64,000 nt of DNA from Desertivirga xinjiangensis (GTDB lineage Bacteria > Bacteroidota > Bacteroidia > Sphingobacteriales > Sphingobacteriaceae). Under the pieces are notes generated by a model. That model did not search any database, had not been told where the DNA came from, and worked only from the letters and a program-made list of their open reading frames with translations. The stretch is taken from NCBI RefSeq assembly GCF_024436435.1, contig NZ_JAFMZP010000001.1, forward strand, positions 124,001-188,000, written 5' to 3'. Numbering within the stretch: the stretch's first letter is position 1; every line of letters begins with the position of its first letter. Positions 5,202-14,039 of this stretch are shown one piece after another. Made by a program: the position numbers and the translations under genes.

Positions 5202-7580
5202 TTATGCAGAACAAGTTACGCAACCTTCTTCCATTGAACAAACCGGACCTTCAGGAATTTCATCCGCGATCTGGTTGACGGTGTCTGGTATTACTGGTTC
5301 CATGTTCTTGCCCGCCTGGGTTTCAATGGTAAATTTAACCGCTTGTGAAGCTGCCTGTGTCCGCAAATAGTACATGCCAGTCTTTAACCCTTTTTTCCAG
5401 GCATAGAAATGCATAGATGTTAGTTTAGCTGCATTTGGAGAACTGACGAACAAGTTAAGCGATTGCGACTGGCATATATAAGCCCCGCGATCGGCCGCCA
5501 TGTCGATGATCGTCCGCATTTTGATTTCCCACACGGTTTTATATAGTTCTTTTATTGCAGCAGGGATTTCCGGGATATCCTGAACAGAACCGTTGGCCGT
5601 GATGATTTTGTTCTTCATGTCGTTATTCCATAGGCCAAGTTTTACAAGGTCGTGAAGGAGGAATTTATTCACGACAATAAACTCACCACTCAGCACCCGG
5701 CGAGTGTAAATGTTCGAAGTATAAGGCTCGAAACACTCATTGTTGCCAAGTATTTGTGAAGTTGAAGCTGTCGGCATTGGCGCCACTAACAAGGAATTAC
5801 GTACACCGTGAGTCATTACTTCGGTACGTAATGTATCCCAATCCCAACGATTGCTATCCGGTGTAACCCCCCACAGATCAAACTGGAACCTGCCTTCTGA
5901 AAGGGGAGACCCTTTAAAAGTTTCATAAACTCCTTCCTGGATTGCCAGGTCTTTTGATGCCGTCATCGCAGCAAAGTAGATCGTTTCAAAGATCTCTTTG
6001 TTGAGTTTCTTCGCTTCCTCAGATTCAAAAGGAAGGCGTAGAAGAATGAAGGTATCGGCAAGGCCCTGAACACCAAGTCCGATAGGTCGGTGACGCAGGT
6101 TTGAATTCTTCGCTTCGTCGACAGGATAATAGTTGTGGTCGATGATACGGTTCAGGTTGAGTGTTACCTGGTAAGTAACTTCATAAAGCTTGTCGTGGTC
6201 GAACACGCCGTTGATGACATAACGAGGCAGCGCCAGGCTGGCCAGATTACATACAGCAACTTCGTCGGCTGCGGTATACTCTATGATTTCGGTGCAAAGA
6301 TTGGAACTTTTGATAGTGCCAAGGTTCTGCTGGTTCGATTTTGCGTTTGCGGCATCTTTATAAAGGAGGTAAGGAGTGCCGGTTTCCACTTGAGAATCGA
6401 GGATAGCGAACCATAATTCCTGCGCTTTTATAGTTTTACGCGCTCTGCCTTCTTTTTCATACCGTTCGTACAGAGCTTCAAATTCTTTTCCAAAACACTC
6501 ATGTAATCCAGGTGCTTCATGAGGGCAGAATAGGCTCCAGCCTTCATTGGTTTCCACACGTTTCATAAACAGATCGCACATCCATAAAGCATAAAACAGG
6601 TCACGGGCACGCAATTCTTCTTTTCCATGGTTTTTGCGCAGATCCAGGAAATCAAATACATCTGCATGCCATGGTTCAAGATAGACCGCAAATGCACCTT
6701 TACGTTTTCCGCCTCCCTGATCAACATAACGGGCTGTATCATTAAATACGCGCAGCATAGGAATAATTCCGTTGCTAGTTCCGTTAGTTCCACTGATATA
6801 TGAGCCCGTTGCCCTTACATTATGGATGCTTAAGCCGATACCGCCTGCGCTTTGCGAAATTTTAGCGGTTTGTTTCAGAGTATCGTAGATGCCGTCAATG
6901 CTGTCGTCCTGCATGGTGAGCAGGAAACAGGAGGACATCTGAGGTTTAGGGGTTCCGGCATTAAACAGGGTGGGGGTTGCGTGGGTAAACCAGCGCTCGC
7001 TCATCAGGTTGTATGTTTTGAGAGCGCTGTCAATATCACTCTTGTGGATGCCAACAGCCACGCGCATGAACAAGTGTTGCGGGCGTTCTACAATTTTACC
7101 ATCTACCTTCAGCAAGTATGACTTTTCAAGCGTTTTGAATCCAAAGTAATCGAATCCAAAATCGCGATCGTAGATGATATGACTGTCAAGAACGTCTGCG
7201 TTTTCTTCGATTACTTTCCATACATCGTCGGCAATAAGCGGAACGGGTTTATCTATTTTTGGATCAACATAAAGGTATAGCTTTTTCATTGTTTCAGAAA
7301 AAGACTTGGTAGTGTTCTTATGAAGGTTTGATACCGCAATCCGTGAGGCAAGCAAAGCATAGTCTGGGTGCTTGGTGGTGAGGGATGCTGCGGTTTCAGC
7401 GGCAAGACTATCCAGCTCGGAGGTAGAAACACCGTCGTATAGGCCCTCGATCACTTTTTTTGCTACATCAATGGGATCAACCAGATCAGCATTTAAACCA
7501 TAGCAGAGTTTTTCGATGCGGGCAGTGATCTTATCAAATTTTACGGGCTCTTTGCGGCCGTTTCTTTTTATTACGAACAT
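5202..7580 (-). CDS. nrdA: Ribonucleoside-diphosphate reductase, class Ia, alpha subunit
   Basis: A 792-residue catalytic subunit that reduces ribonucleoside diphosphates to deoxy forms with the tyrosyl radical supplied by NrdB. An ATP-cone ([18 protein letters not shown] onward, about residues 1-90) predicts dATP inhibition. Then come SSCFLL (redox Cys, about 217), NLCTEIIE (Asn, thiyl Cys and Glu of the active site, about 428), [15 protein letters not shown], and the C-terminal GCVTCSA cysteine pair that takes electrons from thioredoxin. Length is normal. It follows nrdB by 27 bases on the same strand and shares its riboswitch-controlled transcript. Confidence 0.97.
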
Positions 7581-7607: not shown

Positions 7608-8576
7608 TTAAAAGTCTTCGTCGAGTGAAAAGCCCTGTGTTTCTTTGTTTGACAGGACTCCGCTTTTTTGATAGTCGCCAACCCTTTTTTCGAAGAAATT
7701 GGTTTTGCCCTGCAGGGAGATCATCTCCATAAAATCAAAAGGATTGCTTGCGTGGTAGATCTTGTCGTAGCCTAATTCAGAAAGCCATCGGTCGGCTACA
7801 AATTCGATATACTGGCTCATTAGTTTGGCGTTCATGCCAATAAGTGCCACTGGTAATGCATCGGTGATGAACTCTTTTTCTATGGTAACCGCATCACTAA
7901 TGATCTCATGAACTTCTGTTTGAGAAAGCTTACTCTGAAGCATGCTGTAAAGCAGGCAGGCAAATTCACAATGTAATCCTTCGTCCCTTGAGATCAGTTC
8001 ATTACTAAAGGTAAGACCAGGCATAAGTCCCCGCTTTTTCAACCAGAAGATAGAACAAAAGCTTCCGCTGAAAAAGATTCCTTCTACGGCTGCAAATGCA
8101 ACTAATCGCTGTGCAAAAGTCCCATTTTCAATCCATTTTAATGCCCATTCTGCTTTTTTCTTTACGCAAGGCACGGTGTCAATGGCGTGAAACAGCCTGT
8201 CTTTTTCGGCCGCGTCTTTAATATATGAGTCAATTAAAAGTGCGTATGTTTCAGAGTGAATGTTTTCCATCATGATCTGAAAGCCATAGAAGCATCGGGC
8301 TTCGGGAACCTGTACCTCGCTCATAAAGTTAACCGCCAGGTTTTCGTTCACTATGCCGTCGCTGGCTGCAAAGAAGGCCAGGATATGAGAGATGAAATGC
8401 CTTTCGCCAGAGTTAAGGCTTTCCCAATCTTTTTGATCAGCAGAAAGATCTATCTCTTCTGCTGTCCAGAAGCTCGCTTCGTGTTTTTTGTACATCTCCC
8501 AGATAGCGGGATAATTGATGGGGAGGATAACAAAACGGTCTTTGTTTTCTTTTAATAATACTTCATCCTGTTGCAT
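7608..8576 (-). CDS. nrdB: Ribonucleoside-diphosphate reductase, class Ia, beta subunit
   Basis: A 322-residue ferritin-like protein that carries the di-iron centre and tyrosyl radical needed by NrdA. Visible ligands are the Glu and His of [15 protein letters not shown], in which the Tyr (about residue 110) corresponds to the radical Tyr122 of E. coli, and the second Glu-x2-His in [15 protein letters not shown] supplies another helix ligand. It is the first gene of the nrdBA operon. Between its start codon and the promoter lies a cobalamin riboswitch aptamer, so expression is expected to fall when vitamin B12 is available, usually because a B12-dependent class II enzyme can take over. Confidence 0.97.
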
Positions 8577-8691
8577 AGCATCTTATTTTAATGATAAACA
8601 GGGATTGACAAAAGGCAGGTGGTTCGATGGCAGCAGGTTGCGGCTTACGTTGACGGGCTTTCGCCAAAACCTTATTCGTGAAAGTTTTGAC

Positions 8692-8813
8692 AAATCAATT
8701 GGCAGGTGTCTGGCTCAAAGATCTTTCTTTTTACAGTTGCACGTCAGCCCGTGAATTGCACACGGTTACCTTTTAATTATAGGTGAATTCAACCTATAAA
8801 CCAAAAATGATTT
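8692..8813 (-). promoter_or_regulatory. Cobalamin riboswitch (short form) upstream of nrdBA
   Basis: Read on the minus strand, the segment has the AAAAGGTAA core, a GTGTGCAATTCACGG stem, GCTGACGTGCAACTGTAA and the B12 box GAGCCAGACACCTGCC (near 8701-8716). AAATCA plus TTGG at the 5' end pairs with CCAA plus TGATTT at the 3' end to form P1, and TATAGGT/ACCTATA forms P2. The arm usual between ACTGTAA and the B12 box is reduced to about 15 bases, as in short Cbl-II-like variants. Downstream, GCCCGT (8653-8658) can pair with ACGGGC in the aptamer (8747-8752), a possible switching or tertiary contact. No T-run precedes nrdB, so control may be translational. Confidence 0.85.
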
Positions 8814-9091
8814 ATGTTAAAGAACTTGTGGCAACAAAGATAGGGTTTGGAGTTAGAGGAGGTAGGGGTAAGTTTTAAACAAGGTGTTAGTTATGAACAA
8901 AAGGGCGTTGATGTGTGCCAGTTGCAAGCAATTAAGAAGTTTGATTAAAAAGCTGCTGAAGCTTTCCGGTTGATTCGAATGGAAGGTTCGGGCAATATGT
9001 GGTGCTTGTTATGTTTCAAAGTTCCTTCTTATGATTAACTCCAATCTTTTGGTACCAGGGGCAAACGAGGTTTTTTTAAAAAAAAATCTTT
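8814..9091. other. Intergenic region between divergent nrdB riboswitch and susC promoter
   Basis: About 280 bases without a convincing gene. It holds the nrdB promoter box (8835-8842, minus) and an AT-rich run with an A/T tract (9070-9095) leading to the susC promoter. A 26-codon ATG frame begins at 8893, but nothing supports it as a gene. Confidence 0.5.
8835..8842 (-). promoter_or_regulatory. Bacteroidota -7 box of nrdBA
   Basis: Minus-strand TATCTTTG matches the TAnnTTTG -7 consensus and lies 22 bases upstream of the riboswitch aptamer, which fits a transcript that includes the whole aptamer. I see no good -33 TTG partner at the usual distance. Confidence 0.5.
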
Positions 9092-9181: not shown

Positions 9182-12100
9182 ATGTTTCCTAACAGTACTA
9201 TTTATGGCCATAAGATACATCTTTGTGGCCAACAATTAATTTACTACGGCTTCCTGACATTGTTTGCAATGTTTATATCTATCAGGACTAATGCTCAGGC
9301 GGATCCATTTGTAGTTTCGGGTACTATTGTCGACAACAAAGGGGAATCGCTACCCGGTGTGTCAGTGAAAGTTAAAGGGACAGGCAGAGCGACCACCAGT
9401 CGCAACGATGGCAAGTATTCAATTTCTGCAAAGACAGGTGAAATGCTGGTCTTCAGTTATCTGGGATTCGAGGTCAGAGAGATTCGCGTAGGTACAAGCC
9501 ACTTGCTAAATGTAACGCTCGCCGAGCAAATCAACGAGTTGAATGACGTGGTTGTCGTTGGTTACGGAACGATGAAGAGAGCGAGTCTTACAACGGCTCA
9601 AACCTCAATTAAGGCAGCAGATATCGAAAAAACGGTAAATACTACCTTCGATCAAGCTTTGCAGGGACGTGCTGCAGGCGTACTTGTTACTTCTAACTCG
9701 GCACAGCCAGGGGGAAGCCTTTCAGTTAATATCCGGGGCGTGAGTACTATTAACGGCACAAACGAGCCCTTATATGTGATTGATGGGGTACAGATACAGC
9801 CCGAGCTTAGCGACTTTGGAATCACCAGCTCTGCCAATCCTTTAGCGGGGCTAAATCCTTCAGATATTGAAACAATGGAAGTGCTCCAGGGTCCTTCCGC
9901 AACAGCGATCTTTGGCTCAAGGGGTACCAACGGTGTTGTAATGATCACTACCAAGCGCGGGAAGTCGGGCGAAACACGGGTGTCGTACGATCTTCTGTAT
10001 TCAGTGCAGGATCGTCCGGACCTCTTACCGGTAATGGACCTAAAGCAATACGCCACTATGATGAATGATGTGCGCGACGCCTTGGGTGACCCGCGGCTGC
10101 CCGAATTCAATAATCCTTCTATACTGGGCGTCGGTTCGGACTGGCAATCGTCTATGTACCGGCGGGTTCCGCTGGCGAAGCATCAGGTTACTGTAAGCGG
10201 AGGAACCGACAAAACGCGATTCTACCTGGCCGGGGAGTATTTTGACCAGGAGGGGATTGCTTACGGCTCGTCATTTAACAGGTATTCGATGCGATTAAAT
10301 CTTGATAACCAGACCAGGAAATGGTTGAAAATAGGAACTAATATAAGTTTTAATCAGACCCGGGAAGAGCTGGCAGCTACAGAGCAGAGCATCATCCGGG
10401 TGGGACTCTCACAGCCGCCTAATATGCCAATATTCAACGCTGATGGAACATGGGGCGGCCCGGCCGAAGGTGAGGCACCAGGGCAGGGATCAGAGAATAA
10501 CCCCATTGCTATGGCGAGTATCATTGACAACAACCAGCAGAAAAAGCAGTTGCTGGCGAGTGCAAACGCAACGATTTCAATTTTGAAAGGGTTGGAGTTT
10601 CGTACGAGTCTTAACGGAAATGCAGGGATGGGAAAGGTAATCAACTTTACTCCTACCTACAAGCTTGGAAATTATGCGAATACCGTCGCTGAGCTGAGTA
10701 AGCAATCTTCCGAGAATTTCTATTGGAACTGGAATCAGTTGCTCGAATACACAATGAAAGTGAAGCAGCATGGCATAACACTGATGATTAGTCATGAGGC
10801 GCAGGCAAGCACTTATGAAGGTATAGGTGGATTAAGGAGAGGGTTTGTTACAAACGATCTTCCGGAGCTAAATCTTGGTGATCCTCAGGGGATGACCAAT
10901 ACCAGCTATCGGGGACACTGGGCGATGGAGTCGTACTTCGGCCGGTTGAATTATTCTTTCAGGGATAAGTATTTTCTGCAGGCCGCATATCGTGCCGACG
11001 GATCTGTCAACTTCGGTCCTCAGAACCGCTGGGGGTATTTTCCTTCAGTATCTGCGGCCTGGCGGTTATCGAAAGAACCTTTTATGAAGAAATTAACATT
11101 CATCAGCGACCTTAAGCTTCGGTTAGAAACTGGTCTCACCGGTAACCAGGGTAGCGGAGCGGATGTTTATGCTCCTTTAAGTCCGGTGGAAACGCCCTGG
11201 GGCGCTGGATTTATCACCGTGAAGTATGGTAACGAGGATCTCCAGTGGGAAGAAACCCGGACGGATAATGTTGGCTTCAATATTGGTTTGCTAAAAAACC
11301 GGATCCAGATTGAAGGGGATTTTTATAAGCGCAAAACCGAAAACCTCCTGATGCCGAACCCGCTGCCGAACTATATGGGAACTGCGGGCTCAGGGGCTAT
11401 TGAGTCGCCCACGGTTAACATAGGTGCTCTCCAAAATCACGGATTTGCCTTCAGCCTTAATACGATCAACATCAATAACAGGAGATTTAAGTGGAGCACA
11501 AGCTTCAATATCTCGCGCAATGTCAATGAAGTGCTGAAGTTTTATTCGGATGCAGCTACTGCAGACCGTACTAATTGGGCTGCACCCGGCCTGATTCAGC
11601 GTTCTCAGCCAGGCAGTTCAGCATGGCTTTTTTATGGATATGTGTATGATGGTCTGTTCCAGAGTGTAGAAGAAATCCAAAATAGCGCCATTCCTGTACG
11701 AAATGGTGTAAAGATTCCTATCTCCACCTCTGGGGTATGGGTTGGCGATGTAAAATACAAGGACCTTAACGGCGATGGTATTATCGATACCCAGGATCAG
11801 ACCTTTATCGGTAATCCCTGGCCGAAATTTTCGATCGGATTCACCAACAATTTTAGTTACAAAAATCTGAGTGTATCTATGCTGATCACAGGTAGCTATG
11901 GCAATGATGTTTTCAATAACATCCGTTATACCAATCTTAACCCGGCAAAAGTCTATGCACGGCGTAATCTGTTGCAAGAAGCGTTCGGATATGCTCGTCT
12001 GGGCACAGACGATGCAGGCAATGTAGTACTGAAAAATCCTGGTACAACCGTTCCGCGCTACTCAGCCGGGGCTCTAAATGGAAACTTTGACAGAGCTACA

Positions 12101-12382
12101 GATTATTTTGTAGAAGACGGGTCTTTTCTCCGCATCAAAAATCTTACCGTAAATTATCAGTTACCTAAAAAGTTTCTTAGCCTGCAAAATGTAGTGCAGG
12201 CGGCAAGGATAGGTGCCGGTGTTCAGAACCTTCTCACCTTGACGAACTATTCAGGTTACGATCCTGAAGTAGGAGCTGATGTTGGTAAAAACTCTCAGCC
12301 TTCGAGAAGGACAATAGGGGTGGATGTAGGAAAGTATCCTTCCACCCGGATGTACAATTTCAATATAGGTGTTACCTTTTAA
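9182..12382 (+). CDS. SusC/RagA-family TonB-dependent outer-membrane transporter (first pair)
   Basis: A 1066-residue outer-membrane transporter that moves oligosaccharides into the periplasm with energy from TonB. After a long signal region (hydrophobic to about 38, ending TNAQA) comes the CarboxypepD-regulatory-like domain (VVSGTIVDNKGESLPGVSVKV, shortened here to its key GxV and LPGVSV), then the SusC signature NDVVVVGYGT, the plug (YVIDGVQI, ATAIFGSRGTNGVVMITTK) and a beta-barrel ending NFNIGVTF. It overlaps nothing; susD follows by 10 bases. It is preceded by the tandem operator module, so probably induced by a breakdown product of its glycan. Confidence 0.95.
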   Translation: MFPNSTIYGHKIHLCGQQLIYYGFLTLFAMFISIRTNAQADPFVVSGTIVDNKGESLPGVSVKVKGTGRATTSRNDGKYSISAKTGEMLVFSYLGFEVREIRVGTSHLLNVTLAEQINELNDVVVVGYGTMKRASLTTAQTSIKAADIEKTVNTTFDQALQGRAAGVLVTSNSAQPGGSLSVNIRGVSTINGTNEPLYVIDGVQIQPELSDFGITSSANPLAGLNPSDIETMEVLQGPSATAIFGSRGTNGVVMITTKRGKSGETRVSYDLLYSVQDRPDLLPVMDLKQYATMMNDVRDALGDPRLPEFNNPSILGVGSDWQSSMYRRVPLAKHQVTVSGGTDKTRFYLAGEYFDQEGIAYGSSFNRYSMRLNLDNQTRKWLKIGTNISFNQTREELAATEQSIIRVGLSQPPNMPIFNADGTWGGPAEGEAPGQGSENNPIAMASIIDNNQQKKQLLASANATISILKGLEFRTSLNGNAGMGKVINFTPTYKLGNYANTVAELSKQSSENFYWNWNQLLEYTMKVKQHGITLMISHEAQASTYEGIGGLRRGFVTNDLPELNLGDPQGMTNTSYRGHWAMESYFGRLNYSFRDKYFLQAAYRADGSVNFGPQNRWGYFPSVSAAWRLSKEPFMKKLTFISDLKLRLETGLTGNQGSGADVYAPLSPVETPWGAGFITVKYGNEDLQWEETRTDNVGFNIGLLKNRIQIEGDFYKRKTENLLMPNPLPNYMGTAGSGAIESPTVNIGALQNHGFAFSLNTININNRRFKWSTSFNISRNVNEVLKFYSDAATADRTNWAAPGLIQRSQPGSSAWLFYGYVYDGLFQSVEEIQNSAIPVRNGVKIPISTSGVWVGDVKYKDLNGDGIIDTQDQTFIGNPWPKFSIGFTNNFSYKNLSVSMLITGSYGNDVFNNIRYTNLNPAKVYARRNLLQEAFGYARLGTDDAGNVVLKNPGTTVPRYSAGALNGNFDRATDYFVEDGSFLRIKNLTVNYQLPKKFLSLQNVVQAARIGAGVQNLLTLTNYSGYDPEVGADVGKNSQPSRRTIGVDVGKYPSTRMYNFNIGVTF

Positions 12383-12392
12383 CATAAAGTTG

Positions 12393-14039
12393 ATGAAAAG
12401 CAATATATACCTGATTGCCCTGGTGCTGATGCTCATGGGCACAAGCTGCAAGAAAGATTTCCTTGAGAGAAAACCTCTCGACCAGATAGTTAACTCAAAT
12501 TATTACCAAAGTTCTGCGGAGGTGCTGATGGGGACAGCTCCTCTTTACAACATTATCTGGCACTCTTATAATGACAAAGCCGTGCACGGGCTTGGCGACG
12601 GACGTGCAGGAGTATTTTACTCCGGCGGCTATATGACGGAGTTTCAGCGCTTCCTGGTATCACCTACGTCGGCCGATATGGCGAACTCCTGGCGATGCTT
12701 TTACAACGTTGTGGGACAGGCAAATACAGTCATTAAAAATATTGAGACATACGCCTCGCCGAGCGTTCCCCGCGAAATCATTAATCATGCACTTGGAGAG
12801 GCCCGTTTCATGCGGGGACTGGCATACTGGTACCTTGTGGAAAACTGGCAGGCTGTGCCGGTCATTGCAGATAATAGCACACTATTAACGGATACAACGA
12901 TTTCCCGCAATACCGTTGAATCGGTGTGGGAGTTTATTCTGCGTGATTTCCGTTTTGCGGCCAATAATCTTCTCGAGAAGCCGACTCAGAAAGGACGGCT
13001 TACGAAGTATGCAGGTGAGGCAATGCTCGCTCGCATGTTTCTGACTCATGCCGGGGTGGGCACAGACGGTACAAGGCGACAGACCGACCTGGACAGTGCA
13101 GCTTATTATTGCCGTAGTGTGCTGGCGAACAGTGGGGCTCGCTTGATGGAGAATTATGAGGATCTTTTTTTAACGGCTAATAATAATAACGAGGAAAGCC
13201 TCTTTGCCTTGCAATGGGTATATAACGGCGTCTGGGGAACAAACAATACTTTGCAGGCACAGCTGGCATTCAGTAGCTCAATAACTGGTTTTGCCGATGG
13301 CTGGGGCGCTGGTCATGGTGCCGGAATCTATATTTTACAAATGTACGACCTAGCCAGAGACAAGCGGAGGAAAGCGACTTTTATGTTTCCGGGAGATGTA
13401 TATCGTGATATCAGCCAGGCAGTTCCGGATCCGGCCAATCCCAGTAATACCATTATCCAACCGCTGGTGGTGCCCACCAACCCATCTAATCCTGCTGCTG
13501 CGAAAGCAAGTACGGCTTACATCAAGAAATATGTTGTCGGGCGGCCTGAAGATAACAATGGCAAAGTTGCGTATATGCGCACTGAAAATAACACATATAT
13601 GCTGCGTCTGGCGGAAGTTTACCTTACCCTGGCTGAAGCTTTACTTGGCAATGCAGCTTCCACCACAGATAAAGAGGCGGTAAAGGCTTTCAATAAGGTT
13701 CATGAACGGGCAGGTCTTGATGCCGTCACAGAGATCACTTGGGAGGATATTTTTAAGGAGCGATATCTGGAATTCGCGATGGAAGGGCTGGCCTGGTACG
13801 ACTTTGTACGTCTTCACTATTACAATCCGCAAAAGGCTTATGAGATGCTGAATACTATGAATAAGGGAACCTACACAATCACTCCCCTGCCGAAAGATAA
13901 CCCGGTCACCTGGAATATTGAGGTGGTTACGCCGCGGAATTATCCCGTAAACAGTACAAGCTTTTTCCTGCCTTACCCCGCGGGTGAAGTTACCAAAGCG
14001 CCTAACCTGCTGAAGCCGCCAGTACCTTATCAATTTTAA
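12393..14039 (+). CDS. SusD/RagB-family outer-membrane glycan-binding lipoprotein (first pair)
   Basis: A 548-residue surface lipoprotein that caps the SusC barrel and binds glycan. The start at 12393 gives a clean lipoprotein signal, MKSNIYLIALVLMLMGTSC followed by KKDFLERKPLDQ; an upstream in-frame ATG at 12369 would overlap the SusC stop and is less likely. SusD features are seen in ARFMRGLAYWYLVENWQAVP (TPR helices), TYMLRLAEVYLTLAEALLG and FKERYLEFAMEGLAWYDFVR. It lies 10 bases after the SusC gene and 28 bases before the glycan-binding protein, forming a typical three-gene capture operon. Confidence 0.95.
   Translation: MKSNIYLIALVLMLMGTSCKKDFLERKPLDQIVNSNYYQSSAEVLMGTAPLYNIIWHSYNDKAVHGLGDGRAGVFYSGGYMTEFQRFLVSPTSADMANSWRCFYNVVGQANTVIKNIETYASPSVPREIINHALGEARFMRGLAYWYLVENWQAVPVIADNSTLLTDTTISRNTVESVWEFILRDFRFAANNLLEKPTQKGRLTKYAGEAMLARMFLTHAGVGTDGTRRQTDLDSAAYYCRSVLANSGARLMENYEDLFLTANNNNEESLFALQWVYNGVWGTNNTLQAQLAFSSSITGFADGWGAGHGAGIYILQMYDLARDKRRKATFMFPGDVYRDISQAVPDPANPSNTIIQPLVVPTNPSNPAAAKASTAYIKKYVVGRPEDNNGKVAYMRTENNTYMLRLAEVYLTLAEALLGNAASTTDKEAVKAFNKVHERAGLDAVTEITWEDIFKERYLEFAMEGLAWYDFVRLHYYNPQKAYEMLNTMNKGTYTITPLPKDNPVTWNIEVVTPRNYPVNSTSFFLPYPAGEVTKAPNLLKPPVPYQF

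Follow-up and report, generated by a model that had tools for sequence, protein, structure and literature searches.

The window, a 64,000-nucleotide stretch of the Desertivirga xinjiangensis genome, carries on its minus strand the gene nrdB (7608..8576), which encodes the 322-residue small subunit of a ribonucleotide reductase, followed downstream by nrdA (5202..7580), which encodes the 792-residue large subunit with an ATP cone. NrdB matches PF00268 at 394 bits, over the Pfam cut-off, and passes none of the NCBIfam cut-offs; NrdA contains the PF02867 barrel, the PF00317 all-alpha domain, and the PF03477 ATP cone, and exceeds the cut-off for TIGR02506. The nearest solved structures to NrdB are mouse and human R2 (mouse R2 1h0n, E 4.5e-152), and NrdB keeps a tyrosine aligned to mouse Tyr177, the radical tyrosine. 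The assignment of NrdBA to class Ia is a reading of these family and structure matches. Divergent from nrdBA, a long TonB-receptor-like frame and a second frame behind it (9182-14039, plus strand) resemble a SusC/SusD pair by eye.

Ahead of nrdB on the same strand is a short-form cobalamin riboswitch aptamer (8684..8820), which aligns end to end with RF00174 (model positions 1-189; 60.2 bits against a gathering score of 31.5; E 2.1e-12) and ends 107 nt before the nrdB start. RF00174 is the match kept by cmscan, which reports the best model of each clan, and no other Rfam family reaches its gathering score anywhere in the 64-kb window. A preliminary description of this DNA had placed, without naming a strand, a cobalamin riboswitch before nrdBA at 8692-8813, a span that falls inside the Rfam match, and had called the core and B12 box clear, P1 and P2 paired, and one peripheral arm nearly absent. 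The RF00174 alignment agrees on the core, with P2, P4, P5, and the B12 box (GCCAGACACCTGCC, 8701..8714, minus strand, located by the Rfam and family alignments) all present, and on the arm, where 57 model positions are replaced by 2 nt; P2 pairs as described, and P1 does so only in part, with five flagged positions on its 5' side. Since family members differ in this arm and a sequence lacking it still scores over the Rfam cut-off, a full arm is not counted as defining.

The short form is genuine and is not unique to this genome. The 24 aptamers found upstream of nrdB in the family (RF00174 scores of 36.8 to 84.1 bits) share the conserved core and fall into 12 that are equally short (134-150 nt) and 12 of 191-280 nt; seven of the longer ones, all from genus g16, have a long arm and the usual B12 box GCCAGGAGACC, and the remaining five have what appears by eye to be a long hairpin.

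NrdJ, B12 use, and co-occurrence with the aptamer

The class II reductase NrdJ predicted by the preliminary description is encoded elsewhere in the D. xinjiangensis genome (5.5 Mb in 26 contigs). PF02867 occurs there in two genes, nrdA and nrdJ; the 1100-residue NrdJ (C20:218625-221924) carries PF08471, the N-terminal domain of class II enzymes (122.5 bits), and matches TIGR02504 at 582.5 bits against a cut-off of 400. B12 use by the organism is likewise supported by its gene content. The genome has three RF00174 copies, one in the nrdBA leader and two before BtuB-like receptor genes (C11:878607-878808, minus strand, and C24:363-553), together with a PF01923 cobalamin adenosyltransferase (C22:40183-40674). 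The receptor frames score 49 and 71 bits with TIGR01779, far under its cut-off of 600, and because both are truncated by the ends of the loci they are labeled only BtuB-like. An initial assignment of the riboswitch at locus L001 to a TolC-like gene was rejected, as this riboswitch lies on the minus strand before a BtuB-like gene.

The relation between aptamer and NrdJ was followed in 121 Sphingobacteriaceae genomes, evenly drawn from a larger group and including Paradesertivirga, Pedobacter, Mucilaginibacter, and Solitalea. RF00174 occurs somewhere in 94 of the 121 genomes (under a strict filter that loses weak matches), a close NrdB relative (at least 82% identity) in 71, and an NrdJ match over 700 bits in 52, three of these partial or split. 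Genomes counted as lacking NrdJ have no match over 700 bits, and at least four of them (G007, G045, G065, and G109) carry a distant homologue of the large subunit, about 860 residues long and scoring 42-52 bits. The Rfam scan of nrdB upstream regions covered all 71 genomes with a close nrdB: 24 have both the aptamer and NrdJ, none has the aptamer without NrdJ, 11 have NrdJ without an aptamer hit, and 36 have neither (Fisher p ~8e-11, for genomes that are not independent of one another). NrdJ is thus present in 24/24 aptamer genomes, and the aptamer in 0/36 genomes without a close NrdJ. The rule holds inside two mixed genera, where the same four classes, in the same order, number 7, 0, 2, and 4 in g16 and 2, 0, 4, and 9 in g12.

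Among the 11 genomes with NrdJ but no aptamer hit, L017 has just 172 nt before the contig end, and L029 (genome G080) contains a decayed aptamer whose start (CTTTAACAAGGCTTGTTCAGGT) is recognizable together with the platform, the pairing elements between aptamer and start codon described below; model R1 scores it at 19 bits (E 0.046), and Rfam gives no hit in this nrdB leader. Six loci of genus g11 without NrdJ (L042, L045, L053, L054, L056, and L057) have leaders that keep the promoter, a boxA-like motif, and pieces of P13 and the distal platform; the sequence at the aptamer position looks unrelated and may be a vestige or a different RNA. An Rfam search to E 1 on four of these six leaders found nothing.

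A wider set of 50 genomes was chosen from the best 80 named NrdB loci with model-R1 candidates favored, so its proportions are not random, and at least three of its members (G121, G166, and G170) are also in the family set. Linkage was judged from coordinates relative to nrdA (for G128 from locus L129) under a strict filter that loses weak matches. In 17 of the 50 genomes a same-strand RF00174 match lies upstream of nrdB, 16 over the cut-off and G137 below it at 28.3 bits; names among the 17 include Flavihumibacter, Paraflavitalea, Pseudoflavitalea, Chitinophaga, and Mucilaginibacter. The nrdB-linked riboswitch also occurs in Chitinophagaceae. NrdJ is present in 16 of these 17 genomes and in 17 of the other 33. 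The one exception is G132, a 2.6 Mb MAG with a linked aptamer in which no NrdJ was found; the gene may be missing from the assembly. Model R1 is poor on long-armed forms (L100 scores 17.1 bits with R1 versus 92.3 with RF00174), so the 30 named loci beyond the 50, which have no firm R1 flag, may still hide aptamers. Two wider-set genomes have a second cobalamin riboswitch near the 3' side of nrdA (G133:C1:7074789-7074974 and G134:C78:35520-35710).

Promoter and boxA-like motif

The Bacteroidota -7 promoter consensus is TAnnTTTG, and a -7 box of this type, TATCTTTG, lies at 8835..8842 (minus strand). Just 3' of the promoter and overlapping the 5' edge of the aptamer is the boxA-like sequence AGTTCTTTAACA (8815..8826, minus strand). 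Within it, GTTCTTTAACA matches the boxA consensus GYTCTTTAANA, which was derived for gamma-proteobacteria (PMC5725501); Nus binding here is predicted from this sequence match. GYTCTTT occurs in 20 of the 24 riboswitch leaders, the window included, and the exact consensus in 11/24, with a background of GYTCTTT in 51 of 1623 50-nt windows from all upstream regions; TAnnTTT precedes the GTTCTT motif or its counterpart by 8-30 nt in 22/24. The motif is also found within 400 nt in 27 of the 46 aptamer-less nrdB leaders with enough sequence, where a TAnnTTT box stands before 27 of 28 instances, against a background of 15%; many of these leaders come from closely related genomes, and the 27 do not amount to as many independent cases.

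AGTTCTTTAACA is one base off AGTTCTTTGACA, found in three 16S-23S spacers of the relative G102, in which three of eight motif matches lie 1,414 nt after the 16S primer site (the 23S start being placed by eye); in G060, none of three motif matches is at such a position. The motif was rejected as an rRNA-operon marker for the D. xinjiangensis genome, since none of its seven exact matches has a 16S site in the 3-kb locus; at a guess, the rRNA operons of this assembly are poorly assembled. Promoter plus GTTCTTT is mildly enriched genome-wide (99 versus 66 reversed-pattern matches in eight genomes) and falls under the control in G077. No paper on boxA in Bacteroidota was found by title.

TGTTTAAAACTT lies at 8870-8881 (minus strand), about 60 nt 5' of the aptamer and about 30 nt before the -7 box; it recurs as GTTTAAAAC in 18 of the 24 riboswitch loci and is a possible conserved operator. 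Two G060 loci (L177 and L193) have near-identical promoter-boxA-like sites followed by TGTAGGGTGGTGAAAC; their interpretation as tRNA leaders was rejected after ARAGORN and Rfam returned nothing. A promoter/GTTCTTT-like unit is repeated four times, about 368 nt apart, at G028:C14:260350-261473.

Platform between aptamer and start codon

All platform elements lie on the minus strand. The P13 core (8663..8691) consists of GUCAAAAC (8691..8684), a loop with CACG (8683..8671), and GUUUUGGC (8670..8663); the segment UUUGUCAAAAC-UUUCACGNNUAAG-GUUUUGACRAAAG corresponds to P13, which has 14 bp in the minimum-free-energy fold of the window. A centre strand, UUGGCGAAAG (8658..8667), is common to P13 and P14. 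The distal strand CUUUUGUCAA (8605..8614), preceded by a spacing of 29 to 50 nt in family loci, duplicates the 5' strand of P13 and is able to form P14 with the centre strand. Next to it is the 5' side of P15, UCCCUGUU (8597..8604), whose CCUGUU is complementary to codons 2-4 of nrdB; the 3' side, AACAGGAU (8565..8572), lies inside these codons. P15 pairs CCUGUU with AACAGG in the window, the strand is UUCCUGUU in most relatives, and L024 pairs UUCUUGU with ACAAGAA. A simple CUUUC/GAAAG platform pairing was dropped, since L014 has AGAAG, which breaks this pairing but spares P14.

Across the 24 relatives, P13 pairs in 91.8% of cells (62.3% for the best slid 3' strand) with one double-sided cell, P14 in 95.2% (60.4% for the best slide) with two, and P15 in 82.0% with two; for P15, whose strands are partly fixed by the protein sequence MQQE, a slide of +3 gives 83.2% on fewer cells. 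The observed covariation scores are reached by 0, 4, and 78 of 500 shuffles for P13, P14, and P15, although kinship can beat shuffles without any structure, and the double-sided pair counts of all three are within the shuffle range. With so few double-sided changes, the platform could also be an element recognized by its sequence. Between -60..-6 and the first codons, the longest complementary stretch averages 7.5 in the 24 riboswitch leaders and 6.0 in 47 others.

Loop L5 of the aptamer (UGACGU, 8741..8746, minus strand) is the proposed kissing partner of L13. In all 24 loci, L5 (GACGU) and the loop CACG(U) have 3-4 complementary bases, allowing CGU/ACG, ACG/CGU, or ACGU/ACGU pairs; in 17/24 the search reported an equally long UGA/UCA match instead. 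A BtuB riboswitch of the same genome has UCCC/GGGA as its L5/L13 match, and exchanging partners between the nrdB and BtuB riboswitches leaves a match of only 2 bases in 22/24 and 20/24 loci.

These elements suggest a mechanism for control of the start codon. Ligand binding would allow L5 to kiss L13 and so fix P13; fixed P13 would hold the centre strand, leaving the distal duplicate of the P13 5' strand free to lengthen a hairpin that covers the nrdB start, in which UUCCUGUU pairs with codons 2-4. This hairpin would hinder translation initiation with no involvement of a Shine-Dalgarno sequence. Without ligand, the distal copy and the centre strand would form P14, and the start region would open more easily.

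The leader fold is no better than many shuffles (z -1.34; 22/200 as good), and ViennaRNA without ligand gives mean probabilities of 0.78 for P13 and 0.15 for P14. The start region is on average about as accessible in one state as in the other (0.36 vs 0.38). In the P13 state, opening -10..+15 takes 3.2 kcal/mol more on average than in the P14 state, the difference being above 0.5 in 16 of 19 loci and below -0.5 in two; the sample is 19 of the 24 loci, L022, L027, L031, L034, and L067 having been set aside for a misplaced distal strand or start codon in alignment A1. Part of this difference is generic, as controls with shuffled downstream sequence and with aptamer-less nrdB starts give 1.05 and 2.09 kcal/mol (p 6e-5 and 0.016, respectively, for loci that are not independent). 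As modeled, folding alone predicts no balanced switch, and covariation is modest. Confidence in the riboswitch itself is high. Start-codon locking through P13, P14, and P15 is put forward as the mechanism tentatively, at slightly under even odds; the dominance of P13 without ligand and the unchanged mean accessibility count against it.

Interpretation and relation to known systems

The reading favored here, at a probability of roughly 85%, is that the leader riboswitch shuts down the class I enzyme NrdBA when coenzyme B12 is plentiful and the AdoCbl-dependent NrdJ takes over. It draws on what is observed of the aptamer, its gene context, NrdJ, the B12-uptake-type genes, the adenosyltransferase, and the co-occurrence with NrdJ; from these we infer AdoCbl as the ligand and repression as the sign of regulation. 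The opposite sign, activation of nrdBA when B12 is present, has a counterpart in a known activating corrinoid riboswitch (PMC10653944), but the B12-free enzyme would then be made just when the B12 enzyme can work, and in Streptomyces NrdAB is proposed to step in where AdoCbl is lacking (PMC4991794); activation is considered highly improbable. Hardly more credible is the view that the short aptamer has lost its function and is in decay. G080, an NrdJ genome whose leader retains the 5' edge and platform but gives no Rfam hit, and the six g11 genomes with promoter, boxA-like motif, and platform pieces but no aptamer hit do indicate that such decay occurs; against a remnant in the window are the 60.2 bits of its aptamer and the conservation of core, B12 box, L5, and L13 across several short-form genera with very different arm lengths.

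A more serious competitor, although still unlikely, concerns the level of control. The ligand-bound leader might be exposed to Rho, with NusB/S10 loading at the boxA-like motif carrying RNA polymerase through when ligand is absent. The position of the motif right after the -7 box, with GYTCTTT in 20/24 riboswitch leaders (11 exact), and the near-identical motif in the G102 16S-23S spacers fit this proposal. No intrinsic-terminator-like site was found on the transcribed minus strand of the leader (8540-8900), so attenuation would need to be of another kind. Yet the same motif is present in 27/46 aptamer-less nrdBA leaders and is therefore not tied to B12, and transcriptional action leaves the strand complementary to codons 2-4 unexplained. 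It is also conceivable, with about the same modest likelihood, that in Sphingobacteriaceae the nrdBA mRNA begins with a boxA-type antitermination site right behind its promoter and that the riboswitch is an add-on kept only beside NrdJ, the aptamer eroding after NrdJ loss and the promoter, boxA, and platform pieces persisting. If true, the boxA start would couple the supply of DNA precursors to the Nus machinery used for ribosomal RNA.

Repression of nrdBA by B12 would add Bacteroidota to the groups in which B12 decides between two ribonucleotide reductases. The family offers a natural experiment in which the aptamer tracks NrdJ and decayed copies are available, and the platform could serve as a conserved model for a riboswitch that closes a start codon in bacteria that seldom rely on Shine-Dalgarno pairing. 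A search of titles and the starts of abstracts, with two early surveys outside its reach, returned no earlier report of a riboswitch before nrdBA in Bacteroidota.

The principle of a B12 riboswitch on a B12-independent reductase beside NrdJ is already published for other phyla, in one case for NrdDG, the class III reductase. Streptomyces nrdABS is described as regulated by AdoCbl through a riboswitch, with NrdAB proposed for conditions in which AdoCbl is absent (PMC4991794). The S. coelicolor operon resembles the present locus in having a cobalamin riboswitch before a class Ia reductase and NrdJ in the genome (PMC4991794, citing Borovok 2006); it differs in belonging to an actinomycete, in its nrdABS gene order, and in its reported transcriptional action, whereas the locus described here is from Bacteroidota and has the order nrdBA, a short aptamer, and proposed action on translation start. 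B12-elements before nrdDG were proposed in 2004 for Desulfovibrio vulgaris and Desulfuromonas, with earlier work cited (PMC545781); there, too, a B12-element stands on a B12-independent reductase, NrdJ is present, and B12 repression is proposed, but the enzyme is NrdDG instead of class I and the phylum is another.

The E. coli suhB leader is similar in having a boxA-type sequence in a protein-coding mRNA; Nus-complex association is shown for suhB, and the text of that paper does not mention a riboswitch, whereas here there is a sequence match alone (PMC5725501). The kissing-loop/P13 logic is also known (PMC10653944, PMC9600662). In the Priestia megaterium metE corrinoid riboswitch, as proposed here, L5-L13 kissing stabilizes P13, and the 3' side of unbound P13 re-pairs; its alternative partner is an antiterminator acting against an intrinsic terminator (PMC10653944), unlike the partner in the nrdBA leader, which is a second copy of the P13 5' strand adjoining a strand complementary to codons 2-4. 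Relative to these systems, what is new to us is the occurrence in this taxonomic group, the loss of the aptamer along with NrdJ, a platform with two copies of one strand, and a leader that opens with a boxA-like motif.
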